Position numbers and translations under genes: made by a program
Assembly: GCA_019912885.1 (NCBI GenBank)
Contig: JAIOHV010000213.1
Location: 1-44,015, forward strand
Direction of reading: 5' to 3'
From: a bacterium
GTDB taxonomy: Bacteria > Lernaellota > Lernaellaia > JACKCT01
DNA length: 44,015 nucleotides
Part shown: one piece after another, positions 5,197 through 43,880 of the stretch
Layout of the letters: each line of letters starts with the position of its first letter
How positions within the stretch are numbered: the first letter of the stretch is position 1
Notes under the pieces: model-generated
The model's input: only the letters and a program-made list of their open reading frames with translations
Told to the model about the DNA's origin: nothing
The model's database searches: none

Positions 5197-5976
5197 ATGA
5201 CCAAGTGGTGGATTCTTGTGCTCGTCGCGATCGCGGCCCTTTCGGTTTCCATCGTCGCTTGCGGCGATGACGACGACGACGACGATGATGATGACGCGGC
5301 GGACGACGACGCGGACGACGATGACGACGACTCCGCCGACGACGATACCGGCGCCGACGACGACATGGATGACGACGCCGATGACGACGATATGGATGAC
5401 GACGACGCCGATGACGACGACGCCGACGACGACACGGACGAAGGCACGCCGATCTCGCAATACGCGCTGTTGCTCGAAAACGCGAAGGTCAATATCGCGA
5501 CCGGCGGGATCGACTTCGACCGCGCGTTCATCTCGACGTCCGGAACGATGACGATCGACCAGATCGGCACGACGACCGGCGCGACGTTCGAAGGTTCGCT
5601 TCAGACCGTCGGCTTCACGCAGGCCGAAGTCGATTTTGACGCCGGCACCATCGGCATCCTGCAGGACGGCGACACCGGCGTGCTCGCGCTCGAGGAAGTG
5701 ACCGCCACCATCACCGCCGTTCCCGTGAAAAAATCGTTCGACGTTTCCGGCACGCCGTCCGGCGCCAAGGCCGAAGCCTTCAACATGAGCGAGTTTACCC
5801 AGTGCGCTTCGCCGACATGCGTTTCCGCGGCGTATGCGTCGGTGACCGGCGTTTATCAGGTCTCCGAATACACCGACGGCATCCTCGCCACGAACGACTG
5901 GATGCTCATCTGGGCGATCCCCGGCGATGCAACCAACGGTTCGGTGTACGACTTGACGATCGAACTGGACGAATAG
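5197..5976 (+). CDS. Asp-rich lipoprotein, function unknown
   Basis: The start is the ATG behind GGAGGAAGGG, which gives a 259-residue product with a standard lipoprotein signal (MTKWWILVLVAIAALSVSIV, lipobox IVAC). The mature end runs C-G followed by about 65 residues that are almost all Asp, with a few Ala, Met, Ser, Gly and Thr. A globular domain of about 165 residues follows, with hydrophobic/polar alternation typical of beta structure and two Cys in FTQCASPTCV that could form a disulfide. The Asp tract would form a charged, possibly Ca-binding spacer between the lipid anchor and the domain. No family is recognised. A long terminator hairpin follows the stop. Confidence 0.75.
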   Translation: MTKWWILVLVAIAALSVSIVACGDDDDDDDDDDAADDDADDDDDDSADDDTGADDDMDDDADDDDMDDDDADDDDADDDTDEGTPISQYALLLENAKVNIATGGIDFDRAFISTSGTMTIDQIGTTTGATFEGSLQTVGFTQAEVDFDAGTIGILQDGDTGVLALEEVTATITAVPVKKSFDVSGTPSGAKAEAFNMSEFTQCASPTCVSAAYASVTGVYQVSEYTDGILATNDWMLIWAIPGDATNGSVYDLTIELDE

Positions 5977-10961: not shown

Positions 10962-12776
10962 ATGAAACACACATTCACTTTCATGCTGGTCGCGATTCTC
11001 GCGGCCCTCTCGCTCGCCGTCGCGGGCTGCTCGTGCGGCGACGACGACGACGATGACGACGACGGCGCGCCGGATGACGACACCGGCGACGACGACGCCG
11101 ACGACGACACCGGCGACGACGATGCCGATGACGACGACATGGACGACGACATGGACGACGACGATACCGGTGACGACGATACCGGCGACGACGACACCGG
11201 CGACGACGATACCGGCGACGACGATACCGGCGACACCGAGTTCAGCTCGTTGAGCTGCCCCATCTCGGATCCGGAAAGCATCGGCTCGGCAAACACGGTC
11301 GGCGGCGGCTCGGCGACCACGACCGTCGACGTCTACGTTTTCGACGACAATGACTGCTCGGCCATCCAGAATGCGGACGTCATTCACGGCGACACCGTTT
11401 ATCAGACCGACGTCAACGGCCATGCGGTCGTGACGCTGACGGACGCCGAACAGACCATCACCGCGTACGCGGAAGGCTACTGGTCCTGGACCTACAAGGT
11501 CGATGCGGCCGTCATGTATTTCCGCCTGCGTCCGGACAGCTTCGGCAACGCCTACACCGACTCGGGTGACGGCACGTTCCAGGACGAGGGCGGCTCGGAC
11601 CTCGGCCTGACCAACCCCACCCTGTTCGGCCTGTTCTCGAACCCGATCTATCTCGGCGTCGCACTGCCCGGCCTCGCGCGCGCCGATCTGCTGTCGATGG
11701 ACTTCGACGGCCTGCTCGCCACGGACACCTTCGATCTGACGCTCGATCTCGGCGACGGCCCCGCGGTTACCGAGGCGCCGCGTAATATCTATCTCCCGGC
11801 GCTCAACCTCAGCATTCCTGGGCTGTTCAGCGTCACGGGCACCAACGAGGATTACGTCCTTCCGGTGCGCACCGGCGCCTCCGTTTCGCCGATCGAGGGC
11901 TTTGTCCTGTCGGCGAGTGTCGGCGAGTTGTTCGACAACGTCGGCGAGATTCTCGCGGTCGTTGCGTGCGTCACCGGCGGCGGCGACATCCTCGAGTGCG
12001 TCGAACCGCTCGTTCTTCCGCTCATCAACGACGCGCTCGCCTTCAGCCATGTCGGCGCGCGCCCGGACTGGAACGGCACCGGCGATCCGTCGATGACCAC
12101 GCAGGAGACCGGCGGCAACACGCTGTCGATCAACGTCGCCAATGAGGACGCCAATTTCGACTATCTCGCGATCTTCGCGGCCGAAATTCCGAACCGCGCG
12201 CTGCTTCCGCTGGGCGTCGGCATCGTGGATTCCGGGTCCGTGGATGTTGACTACGCCGACGTCCCCGACGGCGATTACCTTGCGGTCGTGGGCGCGACGG
12301 ACCTGTTCGCCTCCGGCTTCACGAGCGTGAATTTCTCGTTCGCGTTGAAATACGGCGAGAGCATCGCGGACATGACCGCCAAGGCGTCCTTCGACGCGGA
12401 TACCGATTTCCTGCCGAACTTCAACGGCGACAATACCGGATACGACGACGTGACCGGCGAGATTTTCTGGGAACTCGAGGCCGGCCCCGCCAAGGCCACC
12501 GCCGACGTCTTCCAGATCGTCTACGTCCCGGATTGCGAGGACTGCCCGGTCGTGCTCGCGCAGGTGCCCGGCGCCGACTCGAGCTTCCAGCCGCCGGTTG
12601 ATGATCTCGGCATCACGCCAAGCGACGCCGACATCGTCGTCGTGCTGGGGATCGACTACCCCGCGGGCGTGGATCTGCAGGAGTACAACCCGGCCGGTCT
12701 GCTCGGTTACAACAGCAGCGCCGTCAACATGTGGACGAACTTCGACATCCTCGGGTTGCTCGGCGGACTGTTCTAG
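10962..12776 (+). CDS. Large Asp-rich lipoprotein
   Basis: The ATG behind GGGAGGT gives 604 residues: a lipoprotein signal ending in lipobox LAVAGC, then SCG and about 70 residues of Asp-rich repeats. The DDDTG pentamer (15-base DNA unit) is repeated several times near residues 65-92. The rest (about 510 residues) has a Carboxypeptidase-regulatory-like beta segment early (VYVFDDNDCSAIQNADVIHG then YQTDVNGHAVVTLTDAEQT), which is a typical surface beta-sandwich pattern. Further beta-rich sequence and a C-C pair near 522-525 follow. No enzyme motif is visible. It is likely an outer-membrane or periplasmic lipoprotein with a flexible anionic stalk. It is monocistronic, closed by a strong terminator. 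Confidence 0.75.
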   Translation: MKHTFTFMLVAILAALSLAVAGCSCGDDDDDDDDGAPDDDTGDDDADDDTGDDDADDDDMDDDMDDDDTGDDDTGDDDTGDDDTGDDDTGDTEFSSLSCPISDPESIGSANTVGGGSATTTVDVYVFDDNDCSAIQNADVIHGDTVYQTDVNGHAVVTLTDAEQTITAYAEGYWSWTYKVDAAVMYFRLRPDSFGNAYTDSGDGTFQDEGGSDLGLTNPTLFGLFSNPIYLGVALPGLARADLLSMDFDGLLATDTFDLTLDLGDGPAVTEAPRNIYLPALNLSIPGLFSVTGTNEDYVLPVRTGASVSPIEGFVLSASVGELFDNVGEILAVVACVTGGGDILECVEPLVLPLINDALAFSHVGARPDWNGTGDPSMTTQETGGNTLSINVANEDANFDYLAIFAAEIPNRALLPLGVGIVDSGSVDVDYADVPDGDYLAVVGATDLFASGFTSVNFSFALKYGESIADMTAKASFDADTDFLPNFNGDNTGYDDVTGEIFWELEAGPAKATADVFQIVYVPDCEDCPVVLAQVPGADSSFQPPVDDLGITPSDADIVVVLGIDYPAGVDLQEYNPAGLLGYNSSAVNMWTNFDILGLLGGLF

Positions 12777-14445: not shown

Positions 14446-14678
14446 GGCGAATTCTCCTTTTGAAAAAATGAAAAACGCCGCCCCATCCCGCCTTCATTGT
14501 AGTCCCGCCGGGATCGGATGGCGTAAGGAAATTTACATGTGTTTCGGATAAAGACGGCGAAACGACGCATCAGGCGCCTCGACCGACTGCGGTCGCCCTT
14601 TTTGCACCCGCGCTTCGTCGTCGCCACGCGTCGCCGGGCATCACGCTTATGAGCGTGCTGATGCTTTTTGCACCCGCG

Positions 14679-14862
14679 CGTCGTCATCCTGAGGCGATGC
14701 GTCGAGCGTCGTCATGCCGAGGCAATGCATCGAGCGTCGTCACACTGACGCGATGCGTCGAGCGTCGTCGCCCCGAGGCGATGCGTCGAGCGTCGTCACA
14801 CTGACGCGATGCGTCGAGCGTCGTCATCCTGAGGCGATGCGTCGAGCGTCGTCATCCTGAGG
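14679..14862 (+). repeat. 28-bp tandem repeat array, about 6.6 copies
   Basis: Units start at 14679, 14707, 14735, 14763, 14791, 14819 and 14847 and begin CGTCGTCATCCTGAGGCGAT. Units alternate between a TCCTGAGG and an ACACTGACG variant. The last unit runs directly into the inverted-repeat element, whose left arm begins with the same TCATCCTGAG string. The unit was probably amplified from that arm. Confidence 0.92.
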
Positions 14863-14955
14863 CGAGCGAAGCGAGCCGAAGGATCTGGCTGGCCCCTGCC
14901 GGCGGCCACGCGTCAACCGGGGCGAGCCAGATCCTTCGCTTCGCTCAGGACGACG
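14848..14955 (+). repeat. TCATCCTGAGCGAAGCGAAGG inverted-repeat element, locus 1
   Basis: The left arm (14848-14890) and the inverted right arm (14926-14955) share the GTC-TCCTGAGCGAAGCGAAGGATCTGGCT pattern, with a small internal expansion in the left arm. About 35 bases lie between the arms, so the transcript could fold into a long hairpin. Confidence 0.85.
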
Positions 14956-15043: not shown

Positions 15044-15091
15044 CCTCGGTGTCCTCTGTGGCTCCTCCGCGCGCTCTGTGTACCGCCGAAC
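15044..15091 (-). repeat. GGTACACAG...CACAGAGGACAC element, copy 1
   Basis: The reverse complement reads TTCGGCGGTACACAG, then a GCGCGGAGGAGCCACAGAGG stretch. A closely matching sequence lies on the plus strand at 42845-42890. Confidence 0.75.
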
Positions 15092-15150
15092 AAAAATCGT
15101 TTGTGACGACCTGTCAGCCTTTCGGCCTTCGAGCCTTCGAAGGCCGTCTC

Positions 15151-17317: not shown

Positions 17318-17331
17318 GCGTCACGCGGTTT

Positions 17332-17406
17332 GTCACCGTGAGCGAAGCGAAGGGCCTCCGTTCGTGCCGGCACGGCGCGAGATCCTTCGCTTCGCTCAGG
17401 ATGACA
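17332..17406 (+). repeat. Inverted-repeat element, locus 2
   Basis: The left arm has TTGTCACCGTGAGCGAAGCG and the right arm has GAGATCCTTCGCTTCGCTCA followed by GGATGACA. A loop of about 22 bases separates them. It is the same family as at 14848, 33734 and 41579. The following bases to 17518 carry a TTTGTGTCCTTTGTGCCTTT string and no gene. Confidence 0.88.
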
Positions 17407-33733: not shown

Positions 33734-33808
33734 GTTGTCATCCTGAGCGAAGCGAAGGATCTCGCTGTTTAACCCAATGAGACCCTTCGCTTCGCTCAGG
33801 GTGACAAC
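33734..33808 (+). repeat. Inverted-repeat element, locus 3
   Basis: The left arm GTTGTCATCCTGAGCGAAGC (33734 on) pairs with a right arm ending GTGACAAC at 33808; the loop is about 15 bases. The arms are about 29 bases. It is the most perfect hairpin of the family in this window. Confidence 0.92.
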
Positions 33809-33866
33809 AGCGCTCAGGGCGACAACAGCGCTCAGGGTGACAACAGCGCTCAGGGCGATAACACCG
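33791..33866 (+). repeat. 18-bp tandem repeat derived from the inverted-repeat arm
   Basis: Four and a part copies of AGCGCTCAGGGYGACAAC start at 33791 (variant), 33809, 33827, 33845 and 33863. The first copy is the right arm of the hairpin, so the array arose by its amplification. Confidence 0.9.
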
Positions 33867-33956: not shown

Positions 33957-35144
33957 ATGACGCTGACGCGACACCGTTTCCCTTTTGCGTTTCTGGCGGC
34001 GCTTGCGGCGCTCGCGCTTTCCGCCGCGGGCTGCGGCTGCGGCGACGATGACGACGACGACTCGTCCGATGGCGGAGACGACGACGCGGCCGGTGACGAC
34101 GACGACGGGCCCGCCGGATACGACGAGCCGATCCCCGACGATCTTCCGGCCGAGGTGCCGCAATTCGGCGATGACGAAACGCGAAAGATCGTCGTCATCG
34201 GCACCGCGGACGACGGCCTCGATGTCCCGCGCGATCTCGATTTCGATCCGGAGCGCCCGGGCCGGCTGTGGACGGTGAACCGCGCGACCGACGGCACGGT
34301 CATCTATTTCGACGCGGGCTCGGACGAGCAGACGTCCGACGAGATCATCGACCGCTACGCCAACCACTTCATGGAGGAAGTCAGTTCCATCGCGTTCGGC
34401 GCGCCGGGGACGTTCGCGACCTGCCAGGAATCGCGCAATACCTACAACGGCCAGGCCGAGCCCAACGATTTCATGGGGCCGGCGCTGTGGCCGAGCGATC
34501 TCGACGTCTACGCGGCGGTGCATCAGTTCGACAACCTGCTCGGCAGTCACCTCGACATGCTTCACGAAAGCCCGCTTTGCATGGGCATCGAGCACGACAC
34601 CGCCAACGTGTATTGGGTGTTCGACGGCATGCACGGCAACATCGTGCGCTACGATTTCAAGGAAGATCACGGGCCCGGATACGACGACCACTCCGACGGC
34701 ATCGTGCGCCGTTACACGGAAATCGGGCTGACGCGCGAACCGGACGTGCCCGGGCATCTGGCGATGGATGATGAAACGCGGTGGATGTACGTGGCCGACA
34801 CCGGCGCCGCGCGCGTCGTGCGCTTCGATACCGAGTCCGGTGCGTTCGCGGGCGATCTGTCCGGCGCGAAGGAGCCGCTCGCGGAGTATTCCGAATATCG
34901 CGGCGCGAACCACGAGACGTTCGTCGATGGGGGATTCGAGACGCCCTGCGGTGTCGCGGTGCACGAGGGCATCATCTTCGTGAGCGATTACGAAACGGGC
35001 GACATCGCGGGATTTGACGTCACCGGCGCCGAGATCGACCGCGTCAATGTCGGCGCGGGCGTCATGGGCATCGAGATCGGCCCCGACGGGCGGCTGTGGT
35101 TCGTCAACGCGGACGAGAACACGGTGAGCGTGATCGAGCCGTAG
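33957..35144 (+). CDS. Asp-rich lipoprotein with beta-propeller (NHL/SMP-30-like) domain
   Basis: I use the ATG at 33957; one three codons earlier is equally in frame. The 395-residue product has a signal MTLTRHRFPFAFLAALAALA, lipobox LSAAGC, then GCG and an Asp tract (DDDDDDSSDGGDDDAAGDDD). The rest reads as repeated propeller blades: DVPRDLDFDPERPGRLWTVN, LCMGIEHDTANVYWVFDGMH, DVPGHLAMDDETRWMYVADT, PCGVAVHEGIIFVSDYET and MGIEIGPDGRLWFVNADENT. These resemble NHL or SMP-30/gluconolactonase-type blades. Metal-binding Glu/Asn positions are not assignable, so it could be a binding scaffold. The gene is followed after 12 bases by a convergent toxin gene. Confidence 0.78.
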   Translation: MTLTRHRFPFAFLAALAALALSAAGCGCGDDDDDDSSDGGDDDAAGDDDDGPAGYDEPIPDDLPAEVPQFGDDETRKIVVIGTADDGLDVPRDLDFDPERPGRLWTVNRATDGTVIYFDAGSDEQTSDEIIDRYANHFMEEVSSIAFGAPGTFATCQESRNTYNGQAEPNDFMGPALWPSDLDVYAAVHQFDNLLGSHLDMLHESPLCMGIEHDTANVYWVFDGMHGNIVRYDFKEDHGPGYDDHSDGIVRRYTEIGLTREPDVPGHLAMDDETRWMYVADTGAARVVRFDTESGAFAGDLSGAKEPLAEYSEYRGANHETFVDGGFETPCGVAVHEGIIFVSDYETGDIAGFDVTGAEIDRVNVGAGVMGIEIGPDGRLWFVNADENTVSVIEP

Positions 35145-37711: not shown

Positions 37712-38635
37712 ATGTCCATCCGATTTCTCGCCGTTTTCGCGCTCGGCGCGTTCGCGTTCGCGTTGATTCCCCTTACCGGCTGCGGTTGCGGGGACGACGA
37801 TGACGAAGATGACGACGATGACGGCGGCGGCGCATTTCCCTACCGCGAGGACGGCCGCTATCCCTTCGGATACCTGCTTTCCGGCGACGGGCCGGCGATG
37901 GCGCGGCTCTCCAATTTCAACGTCGCGGTCTTCGACGTGTACGAGGACGGAGACGAAGACCTGATGGACGCGCTCGCGGATGCGGGCACGCTCGTATTGT
38001 CGTACGTGAATCTCGGCTCGCTGGAATCCTGGCGTTCGTTCGCCGGCGAGTTCGAGGATCTGTGCCTCGCCGCGTACGAAAACTGGGAAGACGAATGCTG
38101 GGTGGACGTGACCGACGCCGGCTGGCAACAGAACTTCATCGACGAGGTCTGCTGGACGGCCTGGGACGCCGGCGCGGACGGGTTTTACATCGATAACGTC
38201 GATATCTTCGCGCTTTACCCGGACAAGGACGTTCGCGACGCGCTCGTCGATGTGCTCGCGACGTTGCGCGATGAATTTCCCGATGCCTACATCGCCGTGC
38301 AAAACGGCGGCGATCTGCTTTTGGACGACGAGGTGGGCGGCGACGCCCGCGATCTCATCGACGCGACGAGCCGCGAAGACGTGAGCTACATCCCCGACTT
38401 CGACGCGCCGGATGGCGGCGATGACACCTATCGCGCGGTCGACGGAGATGAGCGCGACGCGACGCTCGACGAACTCGATGGGCTCGCGGACGATCTGGAT
38501 GTCTACACCGTCGACTACACCAACGACGTCGCGCAGATGCTTGACGCGGTCGAGTTTTCGCGCGGGCACGGGTTCACGCCGTTTGTCGGCGACACGAATC
38601 TCTCACGGCTCGACTTTTACCCGCCGCTTGATTGA
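37712..38635 (+). CDS. Asp-rich lipoprotein, GH114/endo-alpha-1,4-polygalactosaminidase-like
   Basis: The 307-residue product has a signal MSIRFLAVFALGAFAFALIP, lipobox LTGC, then a short Asp tract (DDDDEDDDDD). The domain matches GH114-like TIM barrels: NVAVFDVYEDGDEDLMDALA, LVLSYVNLGSLESWRSF near 115, DECWVDVTDAGWQQNFIDEV near 146, GADGFYIDNVDIF near 174 and a final TPFVGDTNLSRLDFYPP. In this family the Asp of GFYLDN and a nearby Glu/Asp are the likely catalytic acids. Polygalactosamine or related exopolysaccharides are known substrates. It is anchored to a membrane and acts outside the cytosol. It lies in the same direction as the oxidoreductase gene. Confidence 0.78.
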   Translation: MSIRFLAVFALGAFAFALIPLTGCGCGDDDDEDDDDDGGGAFPYREDGRYPFGYLLSGDGPAMARLSNFNVAVFDVYEDGDEDLMDALADAGTLVLSYVNLGSLESWRSFAGEFEDLCLAAYENWEDECWVDVTDAGWQQNFIDEVCWTAWDAGADGFYIDNVDIFALYPDKDVRDALVDVLATLRDEFPDAYIAVQNGGDLLLDDEVGGDARDLIDATSREDVSYIPDFDAPDGGDDTYRAVDGDERDATLDELDGLADDLDVYTVDYTNDVAQMLDAVEFSRGHGFTPFVGDTNLSRLDFYPPLD

Positions 38636-40895: not shown

Positions 40896-41046
40896 ATGGA
40901 CGAAATGGACCGATTGGACATTATGGACGGGATGGACAAACCAGACGCCCCGTCCGGCGTGCGGCAAAGCGCATTTTTTATCGTCGCGCTCCGCCCGTGT
41001 CCACAGGGGCGCCGTCCATATTGTCGATCATGCCCATAATGTCCAT
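40896..41046. repeat. Pair of inverted ATGGACNNN arrays between divergent genes
   Basis: Five units on the plus strand at 40896-40937 and four on the minus strand at 41014-41046 (GTCCAT, GTCGAT, GCCCAT, GTCCAT) keep the 9-base period. They fill most of the space between dapL and the TMTC-like gene; the latter's ATG at 41039 lies in the second array. Confidence 0.85.
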
Positions 41047-42787
41047 TCCCCGCGCCGCCCCGCGCGAGGGCGCGCTGGCCCTTTTCCTCGTGCTTCTTTC
41101 GCTTGTCGCCTACGCGCGCGCGCTGCCCGCGCCGTATATGTGGGACGACGTGTCGCTCATTGCCGACAATCCGGCGCTCGAAGATCCCGCGAACATCCTT
41201 CGCTATTTCGTGGAGGACCTCGGCCACTTCAATCAATCGCCGCGCGACATGGGCTTCTATCGCCCGATGCAGGCGCTCACGTTTCACCTGGAGGCGATGA
41301 CTTTCGGCAAGCGCGCACCGGTGCATCGCGCGATCAACGCGCTCTGGCACGGTGTCGCCGCCGCGTCGATCTTCTTTCTGGCGCGCGCGTTCGCGCTACC
41401 GCTTGGCGTCGCGTTTTTCACCGGACTGCTCTTCGTACTGCATCCGCTCGCGACGGAGCAGGTGGCCCTTGTCGCCAATCGCGGCGGCGTCATGGCCGGC
41501 GCGCTCTATCTCGCCGTGCTCGCGCTGCTCGCGCGCGCGGCGACGAACGGCGAACTTGTCATCCTGAGCCGTCCCTTTGTCATCCTGAGCGAAGCGAAGG
41601 ATCTCGCCACACGCCGGACAACGCGCGCGTTTGCCCTCGCGCTTGCGCTCTACGCGATCGCCCTGCTGACGAAGGACGAAGCGCTCACACTCGCCGCGCC
41701 GGCGGCGGCGCTGGCGTTCTTTCTACCGGCGGCGCGAATCGGTGCGCGGAAGGAGATCCTTTGCTTCGCTCAGGATGACGGATGCGGAGAGCGGCTTCGG
41801 CTGGCTGCACGTCTGGCTGGCCCCGTCGCGGCGCTTGCGCTCGCGTACGTCGTTTGGCGGTGGTTCGTGCTCGACATCTCGCACGGGGGCCGCATCGAGG
41901 TGACATTTCCGCTCGCGACGCGCGTCGCGGCCATTCCCGCGATCGCGCTCAAGGCGTTCGCGCTCGCGTTCGTACCGACGAATCTGCGAGCGATCCGCAC
42001 CGCGGACATCGCCTCGCTCGCCTCGCCGGGCGTCGCCATCGGAGCGACGCTCGTATGGATCGCGATCTTCTTTGCCGCGTGGCGCGCCCGCCGCGCCGCG
42101 CCGATCGTGCCGTTCGCGGCGCTGCTTTTCGCCGCGACGATGGCGCCGTCATCGGGACTCGTGCCGCTTCTTCGCCCGATTGCCGAGCACTACTACTACC
42201 TTCCCACGGCGGCGATGTGCCTGGCGATGGGCGGCGTGATTGGAGTCCTGATCGAGCGCCCCGGATGGCGAATCCGCCGTGGAATCGCGGTCGGCGCGGC
42301 GTCGGCGGTTGTCGTCATTTTTGGCGTCATGACGTGGCAGCGCCTTGGCGCGTGGACAAGCGAAGAGGCGCTATGGCGCGACAACTTCTCAAAGGAACCC
42401 CGCAACACGCACGTCATGAACAACCTCGGTACGCTCGCGGCGATCCGCGGCGACTCGCAGGAGGCCTTCCAGATGTTTCGCGCCGCGGCGTTCACCGGCG
42501 AGCCGAACCCGAAGGCGCTCGCCAATCTCGCGCGGGCCGCGATCGATCTTGGCCAATATCCCGACGCCGCGCGGGCGCTCGATTTGTTGCTCGCGAATCG
42601 GCCGAAAGATCGAAAGGCATGGTTTTCGCTTGGACGCCTGTCGGTACGCGCCGCGACGGACAGCGCGCGCGACAGAATCGAAAGTATCCGCGCCCGCGCG
42701 GGCGAAAACGCGGATGCGGCATCGGTTTTCGATACCGGCGTTGCGTACGAGCGTTCGCAAATCGCGAAGGAATCTTCAGCGCCATGA
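41039..42787 (+). CDS. TMTC-like membrane protein with C-terminal TPRs, containing in-frame repeat arms
   Basis: I use the ATG at 41039; one three codons before and a GTG at 40997 are alternatives. The 582-residue product has about ten helices and the TMTC/PMT-like early motif MWDDVSLIADNPALED in the first periplasmic loop, then FYRPMQALTFHLE. Near 235 there is LLTKDEALTLAAPAA, matching the family's conserved lysine-acid step. The C-terminal 130 residues are soluble and TPR-like (HVMNNLGTLAAIRGDSQEAF onwards). Such proteins are thought to glycosylate proteins from a lipid-linked sugar. Two loops are encoded by inverted copies of the 27-base repeat (VILSEAKDL and EILCFAQDD), so part of the protein is repeat-derived. 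ATGA couples it to the next gene's alternative start. Confidence 0.75.
   Translation: MSIPRAAPREGALALFLVLLSLVAYARALPAPYMWDDVSLIADNPALEDPANILRYFVEDLGHFNQSPRDMGFYRPMQALTFHLEAMTFGKRAPVHRAINALWHGVAAASIFFLARAFALPLGVAFFTGLLFVLHPLATEQVALVANRGGVMAGALYLAVLALLARAATNGELVILSRPFVILSEAKDLATRRTTRAFALALALYAIALLTKDEALTLAAPAAALAFFLPAARIGARKEILCFAQDDGCGERLRLAARLAGPVAALALAYVVWRWFVLDISHGGRIEVTFPLATRVAAIPAIALKAFALAFVPTNLRAIRTADIASLASPGVAIGATLVWIAIFFAAWRARRAAPIVPFAALLFAATMAPSSGLVPLLRPIAEHYYYLPTAAMCLAMGGVIGVLIERPGWRIRRGIAVGAASAVVVIFGVMTWQRLGAWTSEEALWRDNFSKEPRNTHVMNNLGTLAAIRGDSQEAFQMFRAAAFTGEPNPKALANLARAAIDLGQYPDAARALDLLLANRPKDRKAWFSLGRLSVRAATDSARDRIESIRARAGENADAASVFDTGVAYERSQIAKESSAP
41579..41779 (+). repeat. 27-bp inverted-repeat arms inside a coding sequence, locus 4
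   Basis: The left arm (41579-41605, GTCATCCTGAGCGAAGCGAA onwards) and right arm (41753-41779, its inverted copy with one difference) are separated by 147 bases of coding DNA. A partial copy of the first 13 bases sits at 41558. The frame stays open across all three. Confidence 0.92.
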
Positions 42788-42837
42788 TGCGCGTTCGTGT
42801 TAACCTTCGCGGCGGCGGACTCGTCGAATCGCGTAGG

Positions 42838-42890
42838 TTTATTTTCGGCGGTACACAGGGAGCACAGGGAAGCCACAGGGGACACGGAGT
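42838..42890 (+). repeat. GGTACACAG...CACAGGGGACACGG element, copy 2
   Basis: TTCGGCGGTACACAGGGAGC followed by an AGCCACAGGGGACACGG stretch closely matches the reverse complement of 15044-15091. It forms the region just before the esterase start. Confidence 0.75.
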
Positions 42891-42891
42891 A

Positions 42892-43785
42892 ATGACATTG
42901 GGGCACGTGAAATTCAATTCTTCGCGCTCTTTGCGCCTTCTTTGCGCCTTCGCGGTTTTCTTCGTCATCGCGCCGTCCGGCTGCGGGCTCATGGGTGCGC
43001 CGCCGGCGTCGTCTTCGTCCGACGTTCGCGTCGTCAATGACATCACGTATTACAAGGGCAACCCCATCGACGCGGTTGCGCACATGCTCGATCTCTACCT
43101 GCCGCGCGAGGGCAAGGACTGGCCCGTCGTCGTCCTGATTCACGGCGGCGCGTGGTTTGCCGGCAACAAGCGCTACGTCGCGCCGCTGGCGATGGAGTTG
43201 GCGCGAAACGGCATCGCGGTCGCCAGCGCGAACTACCGCCTGACGCCGCGCGTGCGCCACCCGGGCCACGTGAAGGATGTCGCGCGCGCGATCGCGTGGG
43301 TGCGGCGAAACATCGACCGCTACGACGGCAACCCGGACGCGCTGTTTCTCGCCGGGCATTCGGCCGGCGGGCATCTGGTGTCGCTCGTCGCGCTCGATCG
43401 CGGCTATCTAGGTGAGCACGGCATCGACCCGGACACGGACATCGCGGGCGTGATGCCGATCTCCGGCGTGTACGAGATTGACACCGACGTGCTCGAGCCC
43501 GCGTTCGGCAATGATCGCGACGATTGGCGCGACGCGTCGCCCATCGAGCACGTGCATCCCAGCGCGCCGCCGTTTTTCGTCTTCTTCGCCGAGCACGAGA
43601 TGCAAGGCGACATCCCGCTCGTCGCGCAGGCGGGGGATTTCTTTGACGCGCTCATCGACGAGGGCGTGCCGGCGTATATCCGCGAGATTCGCGGCGCGAA
43701 CCACGACACCATCGTGACGCAGACAAACGGCCCGGCGGGCACGACCGCGAAGGAGATGGTGAAGTTCGTCGAGCAATATGAGTAA
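42892..43785 (+). CDS. Lipoprotein alpha/beta-hydrolase (carboxylesterase, HSL-like)
   Basis: I use the ATG at 42892 (GGAG just before), giving 297 residues; a GTG at 42907 would also fit. A short signal (SRSLRLLCAFAVFFVIAPSG, Cys next) suggests a lipoprotein. The hydrolase has the HSL oxyanion motif LIHGGAWFAGNKR near 80-92, the nucleophile in FLAGHSAGGHLVSLVALD near 144-161 (Ser), Asp in FFAEHEMQGDIP and His in EIRGANHDTIV near 274. It should hydrolyse short-chain esters outside the cytosol. The signal peptide lies within a CTTTGCGCC repeat, and the 5' region is a CACAGGG repeat, so both leader and start are repeat-derived. Confidence 0.82.
   Translation: MTLGHVKFNSSRSLRLLCAFAVFFVIAPSGCGLMGAPPASSSSDVRVVNDITYYKGNPIDAVAHMLDLYLPREGKDWPVVVLIHGGAWFAGNKRYVAPLAMELARNGIAVASANYRLTPRVRHPGHVKDVARAIAWVRRNIDRYDGNPDALFLAGHSAGGHLVSLVALDRGYLGEHGIDPDTDIAGVMPISGVYEIDTDVLEPAFGNDRDDWRDASPIEHVHPSAPPFFVFFAEHEMQGDIPLVAQAGDFFDALIDEGVPAYIREIRGANHDTIVTQTNGPAGTTAKEMVKFVEQYE
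42920..42960 (+). repeat. CTTTGCGCC repeat encoding a signal peptide
   Basis: CTTCGCGCTCTTTGCGCCTT, then CTTTGCGCCTTCGCGGTTTT, with related strings at 17457 (TTTGTGTCCTTTGTGCC) and, inverted, at 43832-43860. It codes for residues SRSLRLLCAFAVFF of the esterase. Confidence 0.7.
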
Positions 43786-43792
43786 GGCCGAG

Positions 43793-43835
43793 GCTGAAAG
43801 ACTGAAAGGCTGAAAGGTCATGCGCATCGCACCGC
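43793..43835 (-). repeat. Composite repeat element, copy C (partial)
   Basis: Three GCTGAAAG octamers are followed by GTCATGCGCATCGCACCGCG, which matches the octamer end and part of the hairpin core of copies A and B in inverted sense. A CGCGAAGACGCGAAGAACGC string follows, related to the CTTTGCG repeats. Confidence 0.65.
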
Positions 43836-43880
43836 GAAGACGCGAAGAACGCAAAGGACGCCGGGCGCTTGTCACCCTGA

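Follow-up and report, generated by a model that had tools for sequence, protein, structure and literature searches.

Two in-frame copies of a REP-like hairpin repeat in a predicted membrane-protein gene of a Lernaellota bacterium

Here, we examine a window of 44,015 nucleotides (contig C213, JAIOHV010000213.1 of assembly GCA_019912885.1) in which an open gene for a predicted multi-pass membrane protein contains two copies of a short repeat, and find that the repeat is very probably a non-autonomous REP-like hairpin which is, or formerly was, copied around the genome and which entered this gene as two separate, tolerated in-frame insertions. The genome spans 4.8 Mb in 230 contigs and is 99% complete.

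Repeat copies within the host gene

The 27-nt repeat, TGTC-ATCCTGAGC-GAA-GCGAAGGAT-CT, lies at 41578–41604 on the forward strand and at 41754–41780 on the reverse strand, both copies within the host frame (Table 1). The original prediction of two repeat arms inside an open TMTC-like gene was borne out: the 26-mer GTCATCCTGAGCGAAGCGAAGGATCT matches exactly at 41579–41604 (+) and with one mismatch at 41754–41779 (−), and the frame at 41030–42787 is open through both. Translation of this frame gives ...LVILSRPFVILSEAKDL... across the first copy and ...EILCFAQDD... across the second, confirming the proposed in-frame peptides VILSEAKDL and EILCFAQDD. The window as a whole contains six 26-mer matches with up to three mismatches, against 0.00 expected from shuffles. 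We measured 149 bases between the two 26-mers, where 147 had been given for 27-base arms, and found that the arms do not flank hairpins elsewhere in the window, as had been thought; each arm is itself the hairpin, and pairs of them stand 17–22 nt apart (17331/17379 and 33736/33780).

Four homologs of the host protein from the same phylum (L032, L054, L055 and L057), all repeat-free and roughly 40–50% identical to it, allowed the two loops to be compared. The NRGG-to-LLxK spacing is 66 residues in the host versus 47, 47, 46 and 47 in these homologs, and the LLxK-to-ISH spacing is 67 residues versus 51, 51, 48 and 49. The proposed comparison of loop length with repeat-free relatives thus found shorter loops there and none of equal length, supporting the suggestion of tolerated insertion into loops and identifying both loops, as judged by alignment, as insertions relative to these homologs. 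Because the homologs are only ~40–50% identical, the limits of the insertions are known to within a few residues. The segment between the sites aligns with the same conserved transmembrane pair in all four homologs, and since this segment is ancestral, the two units were inserted singly and separately.

In an AlphaFold model of the host protein (mean pLDDT 70), both inserts occupy the lowest-confidence regions, next to helices. Site 1 is in a low-confidence stretch (residues 175–194) between helices 153–172 and 193–214, and site 2 is within a longer one (residues 235–292) that follows helix 216–231, with helices 193–214 and 216–231 forming the conserved transmembrane pair. As the loops flank one helical hairpin, they are expected to share one side of the membrane, and their richness in K/R suggests that this side is probably cytoplasmic. 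TPR_19 scores over the Pfam cut-off at the C-terminus, and Foldseek searches with the model returned weak matches to DPY19 (E 0.006), PglB (E 0.009) and Pmt4. A GT-C/TMTC-like identity is a reasonable but weak fit to these predictions; the C-terminal TPR repeats and the weak fold matches to GT-C enzymes are both in line with the earlier 'TMTC-like' label.

Table 1. Coordinates of the host gene, its insertions and related repeat features in the window
Feature	Position	Strand	Evidence or remark
Host gene, predicted multi-pass membrane protein, TPR repeats at the C-terminus, GT-C/TMTC-like	41030..42787	+	Open frame, 585 aa from ATG
Insertion 1: half-copy plus one full unit, about 57 nt, +19–20 aa	41555..41611 (approximate limits)	+	NRGG..LLxK spacing
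Truncated half-copy TTGTCATCCTGAGC, tag plus 5' arm	41556..41569	+	On the tag side of the full unit, 21 nt before it
Full REP-like unit TTGTCATCCTGAGCGAAGCGAAGGATCTC, reading VILSEAKDL	41577..41605	+	Sequence and open frame
Ancestral segment between insertions, conserved transmembrane pair (..ALYAIALLTKDEALTLAAP..)	41612..41746	+	Aligns to four homologs
Insertion 2: about 48–57 nt, +16–19 aa	41747..41798 (approximate limits)	−	LLxK..ISH spacing
Second REP-like unit, differing from the consensus at one internal position, + strand reading EILCFAQDD	41754..41780	−	
Inverted pair of REP-like unit, tags outward, gap 22 nt	17331..17405		
Inverted pair of REP-like unit, gap 17 nt, then tag-side 18-nt half-copy repeats (33793–33864)	33736..33864		
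Derived units in a 28-nt tandem array, with a full unit on the − strand (14929–14954)	14647..14954		

The hairpin unit, its pairs and its half-copies

Using 155 copies from the host genome and a sister genome (G001), we obtained the consensus unit [T/C]GTC - ATCCT - GA - GC - GNA - GC - GA - AGGAT - CT. The first base of the tag is T or C in 153 copies and the following GTC is nearly invariant; at the other end, the CT tail is mostly followed by C or G. The stem consists of five base pairs (ATCCT/AGGAT), two G.A mismatches and two further pairs, and it begins with A-T (140/155) and then T-A (116/155). At pair 5-23, T-A occurs in 116 copies and C-G in 37, the other 2 being mispaired or wobble; at pair 6-22, 146 copies have C-G and 7 have T-A; and at the inner pair 152 have G-C and 3 have A-T. 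Mutual information is 0.68 bits for pair 5-23 and 0.31 bits for pair 6-22, in each case more than these positions share with any other column. The opposed GA/GA mismatches are intact in 154 copies, and the loop is GNA (GAA, GCA, GGA or GTA) in 151. Below this triloop are two inner pairs, and the lower one covaries between G-C and A-T; the loop would count as five only if the C-G closing pair were open. The covariation supports a hairpin, and by these sequence features the unit is REP-like.

The thermodynamic (ab initio) folding energy of the unit alone was no better than that of shuffles; standard folding parameters are believed not to credit fully GNA loops or sheared G.A pairs. The sequence d(GCGNAGC) is the core of an extraordinarily stable GNA DNA minihairpin, a GCGAAGC fragment melting at 78 °C (PMC4686876). 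The same sequence, with its variable base as the N of GNA, makes up the core of our unit, which would by its sequence form such a GNA minihairpin; that paper describes a short oligonucleotide motif, and here the motif is conserved at the center of a repeat carried in genomes.

The whole host genome contains 147 matches with at most three mismatches and its reversed-sequence control none; closer analysis drew on 683 kb of sequence around repeat copies and Y1 genes. Inverted pairs with tags outward are frequent, separated mostly by 16–17 or 22 nt in the host genome and by 15–17 nt in the sister genome, and many combine two different units (ATCCT with ACCCT or ATTCT). Start-to-start spacing in unrelated genomes is 83 in G251 and 56 in G145, each genome having its own value. 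Within the window, a 28-nt tandem array derived from the unit is repeated seven times at 14647–14870.

Partial copies around the 155 units are polar. Half-copies comprising the tag and 5' arm in the same orientation number 104 on the tag side and 0 on the tail side, and those in the opposite orientation number 30 on the tail side and 4 on the tag side, the 30 being probably worn pair partners. At least one adjacent half-copy is found at 52 of the 155 units, with periods mostly of 17–23 nt. Smaller and less clear samples gave 7 tag-side to 1 tail-side half-copies in G251 and 3 to 0 in G362. Tandem stacks of half-units on the tag side are seen in the host genome (G000) at 33793–33864 of the window and at L095 (C112:4553-4640), L098 (C157:30-118) and L106 (C212:1904-1970). 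In the accessible text of the literature searched on REP-type repeats we found no description of such polar stacks. Plausibly, half-copies arise where DNA synthesis or repair stalls at the apex of the hairpin and the sequence is reiterated.

Distribution and relation to known repeats

Of the phylum's seven genomes, six contain the unit, as do 42 of 386 genomes sampled across Bacteria; the reversed control gave zero in every case. The tag and the GA mismatches are retained in copies from G251, G136, G315, G145 and G362, and so, for the most part, is the GNA loop. Among 2.9 million viral contigs the exact 26-mer occurred in 15 stretches only, and because so few carry it, the unit is not mainly a phage feature.

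The unit avoids genes. Based on gene calls from a codon model built for the analysis, which make the location counts approximate, 10 of 97 loci fall inside predicted genes versus 81% expected of random positions. The others lie between convergent (34), unidirectional (42) or divergent (6) genes or at a contig edge (5), where random positions give 3.6% convergent, 8.7% unidirectional and 3.3% divergent.

We inspected Y1_Tnp genes in all seven of the phylum's genomes and in nine other repeat-bearing genomes, and none of the approximately 30 genes examined had a unit within 1.5 kb. G002, which has the highest number of Y1 hits (23), has zero units, and three genomes with 17–23 units (G143, G038 and G293) have zero Y1 hits. 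A genome can thus contain the repeat today without having a Y1 gene of its own. An Rfam scan of the window returned no match above the gathering score, and our literature search found no publication on the repeat motif or the peptide VILSEAKDL and no name for the family.

The closest comparison is with the CGTC-tagged REP super-family (Di Nocera et al. 2013, PMC3733652). As set out in that paper, these repeats have an unpaired CGTC (or TGTC/CCTC) tag, a loop of 4–5 nt and a three-base tail that is mostly CCA, are located between convergent or unidirectional genes, and have no dedicated adjacent transposase gene; in-frame intragenic insertions were already known there for other REP and RPE families. 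Our unit likewise has an unpaired tag (CGTC/TGTC) at one end and usually opens its stem with A-T followed by T-A; also shared are inverted pairs often of unlike units, the convergent or unidirectional intergenic location, in-frame intragenic copies and the lack of an adjoining transposase gene, judged by the 1.5 kb around the Y1_Tnp genes inspected. It departs from the published definition in its triloop of three rather than 4–5, its two conserved G.A mismatches in the stem and its CT(C/G) rather than CCA tail, and it differs further in its polar half-copy stacks, for which we found no description. Given these departures in loop length, mid-stem mismatch and tail, we do not count the unit as a CGTC member, though it works like one.

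Other families offer partial parallels. REPINs and GTAG REPs, mobilized by RAYT, TnpAREP (PMC3116915, PMC8266576), likewise combine a tag with a hairpin and arrange two inverted units around a defined spacer, and in E. coli REP a conserved mid-stem mismatch is required for TnpAREP recognition (PMC8266576), a feature matched by the conserved two-base mismatch in our unit. In contrast to GTAG REPs, the tag here is [T/C]GTC and no RAYT/Y1 gene lies beside any copy examined. Rickettsia palindromic elements, of which RPE-4 and RPE-6 are CGTC repeats according to PMC3733652, are also short palindromes found in frame in unrelated genes, but differ in sequence and host; ours is about 27 nt long, has a GNA core and is mostly intergenic.

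Alternative readings and a possible mechanism

Several other genes carry the unit in frame. An M23/PKD protein with an in-frame unit, apparently a worn inverted pair, is 41 residues longer than relatives without it; an AAA ATPase (L107, C228) is 77 residues longer than its relatives, the unit forming part of the insert together with another repeat; and a sulfatase, whose relatives lack the unit, has one followed by 18-nt repeats. Further candidates are an MmeI-like methylase and L111 (C8:7538-7700), another multi-pass membrane protein, which has four units at a 39-nt period (13 codons, CHSERSEESPARV). In L107 and L111, a second small repeat family (CACCGCGAAGACGCAAAGA...) stands in coding frames beside the unit, reading HREDAKIAKK or, on the other strand, LCVLCVFAV, and possibly occurs also at 42918–42965 and 43826–43860 of the window.

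These carriers bear on the possibility that the added peptides were kept as useful, the repeat serving as protein raw material for functional loop extensions such as a binding or targeting segment. We regard this as improbable: the unit is indeed in frame in several unrelated genes, and some copies have expanded as 18-nt or 39-nt in-frame repeats, but its reading frame differs between genes (VILSEAKDL, EILRFAQDD, CHPERSEGS), so that no common peptide has been selected, and with ~10% of loci in genes the pattern is that expected of purging with rare tolerance. Marginally less probable again is that the host gene is a decaying pseudogene in which insertions are unselected. Its stop falls ~25–40 residues short of the homolog ends, as such decay would predict, but the frame runs open for 585 codons with its major conserved motifs intact, and the codon model gives a positive coding signal on either side of both inserts. 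The end of the frame (region 42700–42900) is just 5' of another repeat, GGTACACAGGGAGCACAGGG..., which has an inverted partner at 15045–15096.

A single composite element of ~229 nt, a transposon or cassette bringing the transmembrane pair between its two arms, has the outward tags of the usual inverted pairs of the host genome, but is very improbable and is rejected because its middle matches the conserved pair in all four repeat-free homologs and its gap is 149 nt rather than the usual 16–22. This exclusion leaves the separate entry of two copies in opposite sense, which the original prediction had offered as its second option.

Under the favored reading of two separate, tolerated insertions of a REP-like hairpin, the folded single strand of the unit (top strand) would be recognized by a mobilizing enzyme acting in trans, most plausibly of the HUH/Y1 type by analogy with other REPs. 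The two units entered separately at the loops flanking one transmembrane pair, and the frame remained open at both. Their survival may reflect a unit that is stop-free in four of six frames, inserts that keep the frame, and loops tolerant of extra residues; the added peptides are most likely functionless, a by-product of repeat spread filtered by selection.

Together, these data document REP-like units inserted in frame in a phylum that has received little study, backed by comparison with homologs for four genes, and define a repeat family found across Bacteria. The GNA core and mid-stem mismatches provide a concrete single-strand DNA substrate for testing the enzyme that moves CGTC-type repeats, and the one-sided half-copy stacks point to a replication or hairpin-processing step. 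More tentatively, and with considerable doubt, we propose that a bacteria-wide GNA-minihairpin REP family moves without a resident RAYT, and that its hyperstable apex drives polar reiteration of half-hairpins on the tag side (17–23 nt), seeding insertions and growing in-frame variable repeats in protein loops.

Separately, Asp-rich low-complexity sequence (GACGACGAC...) follows lipoprotein-like starts (CGDDDD...) in several proteins of the window (5248–5468, 11016–11233, 34023–34123 and 37787–37872).
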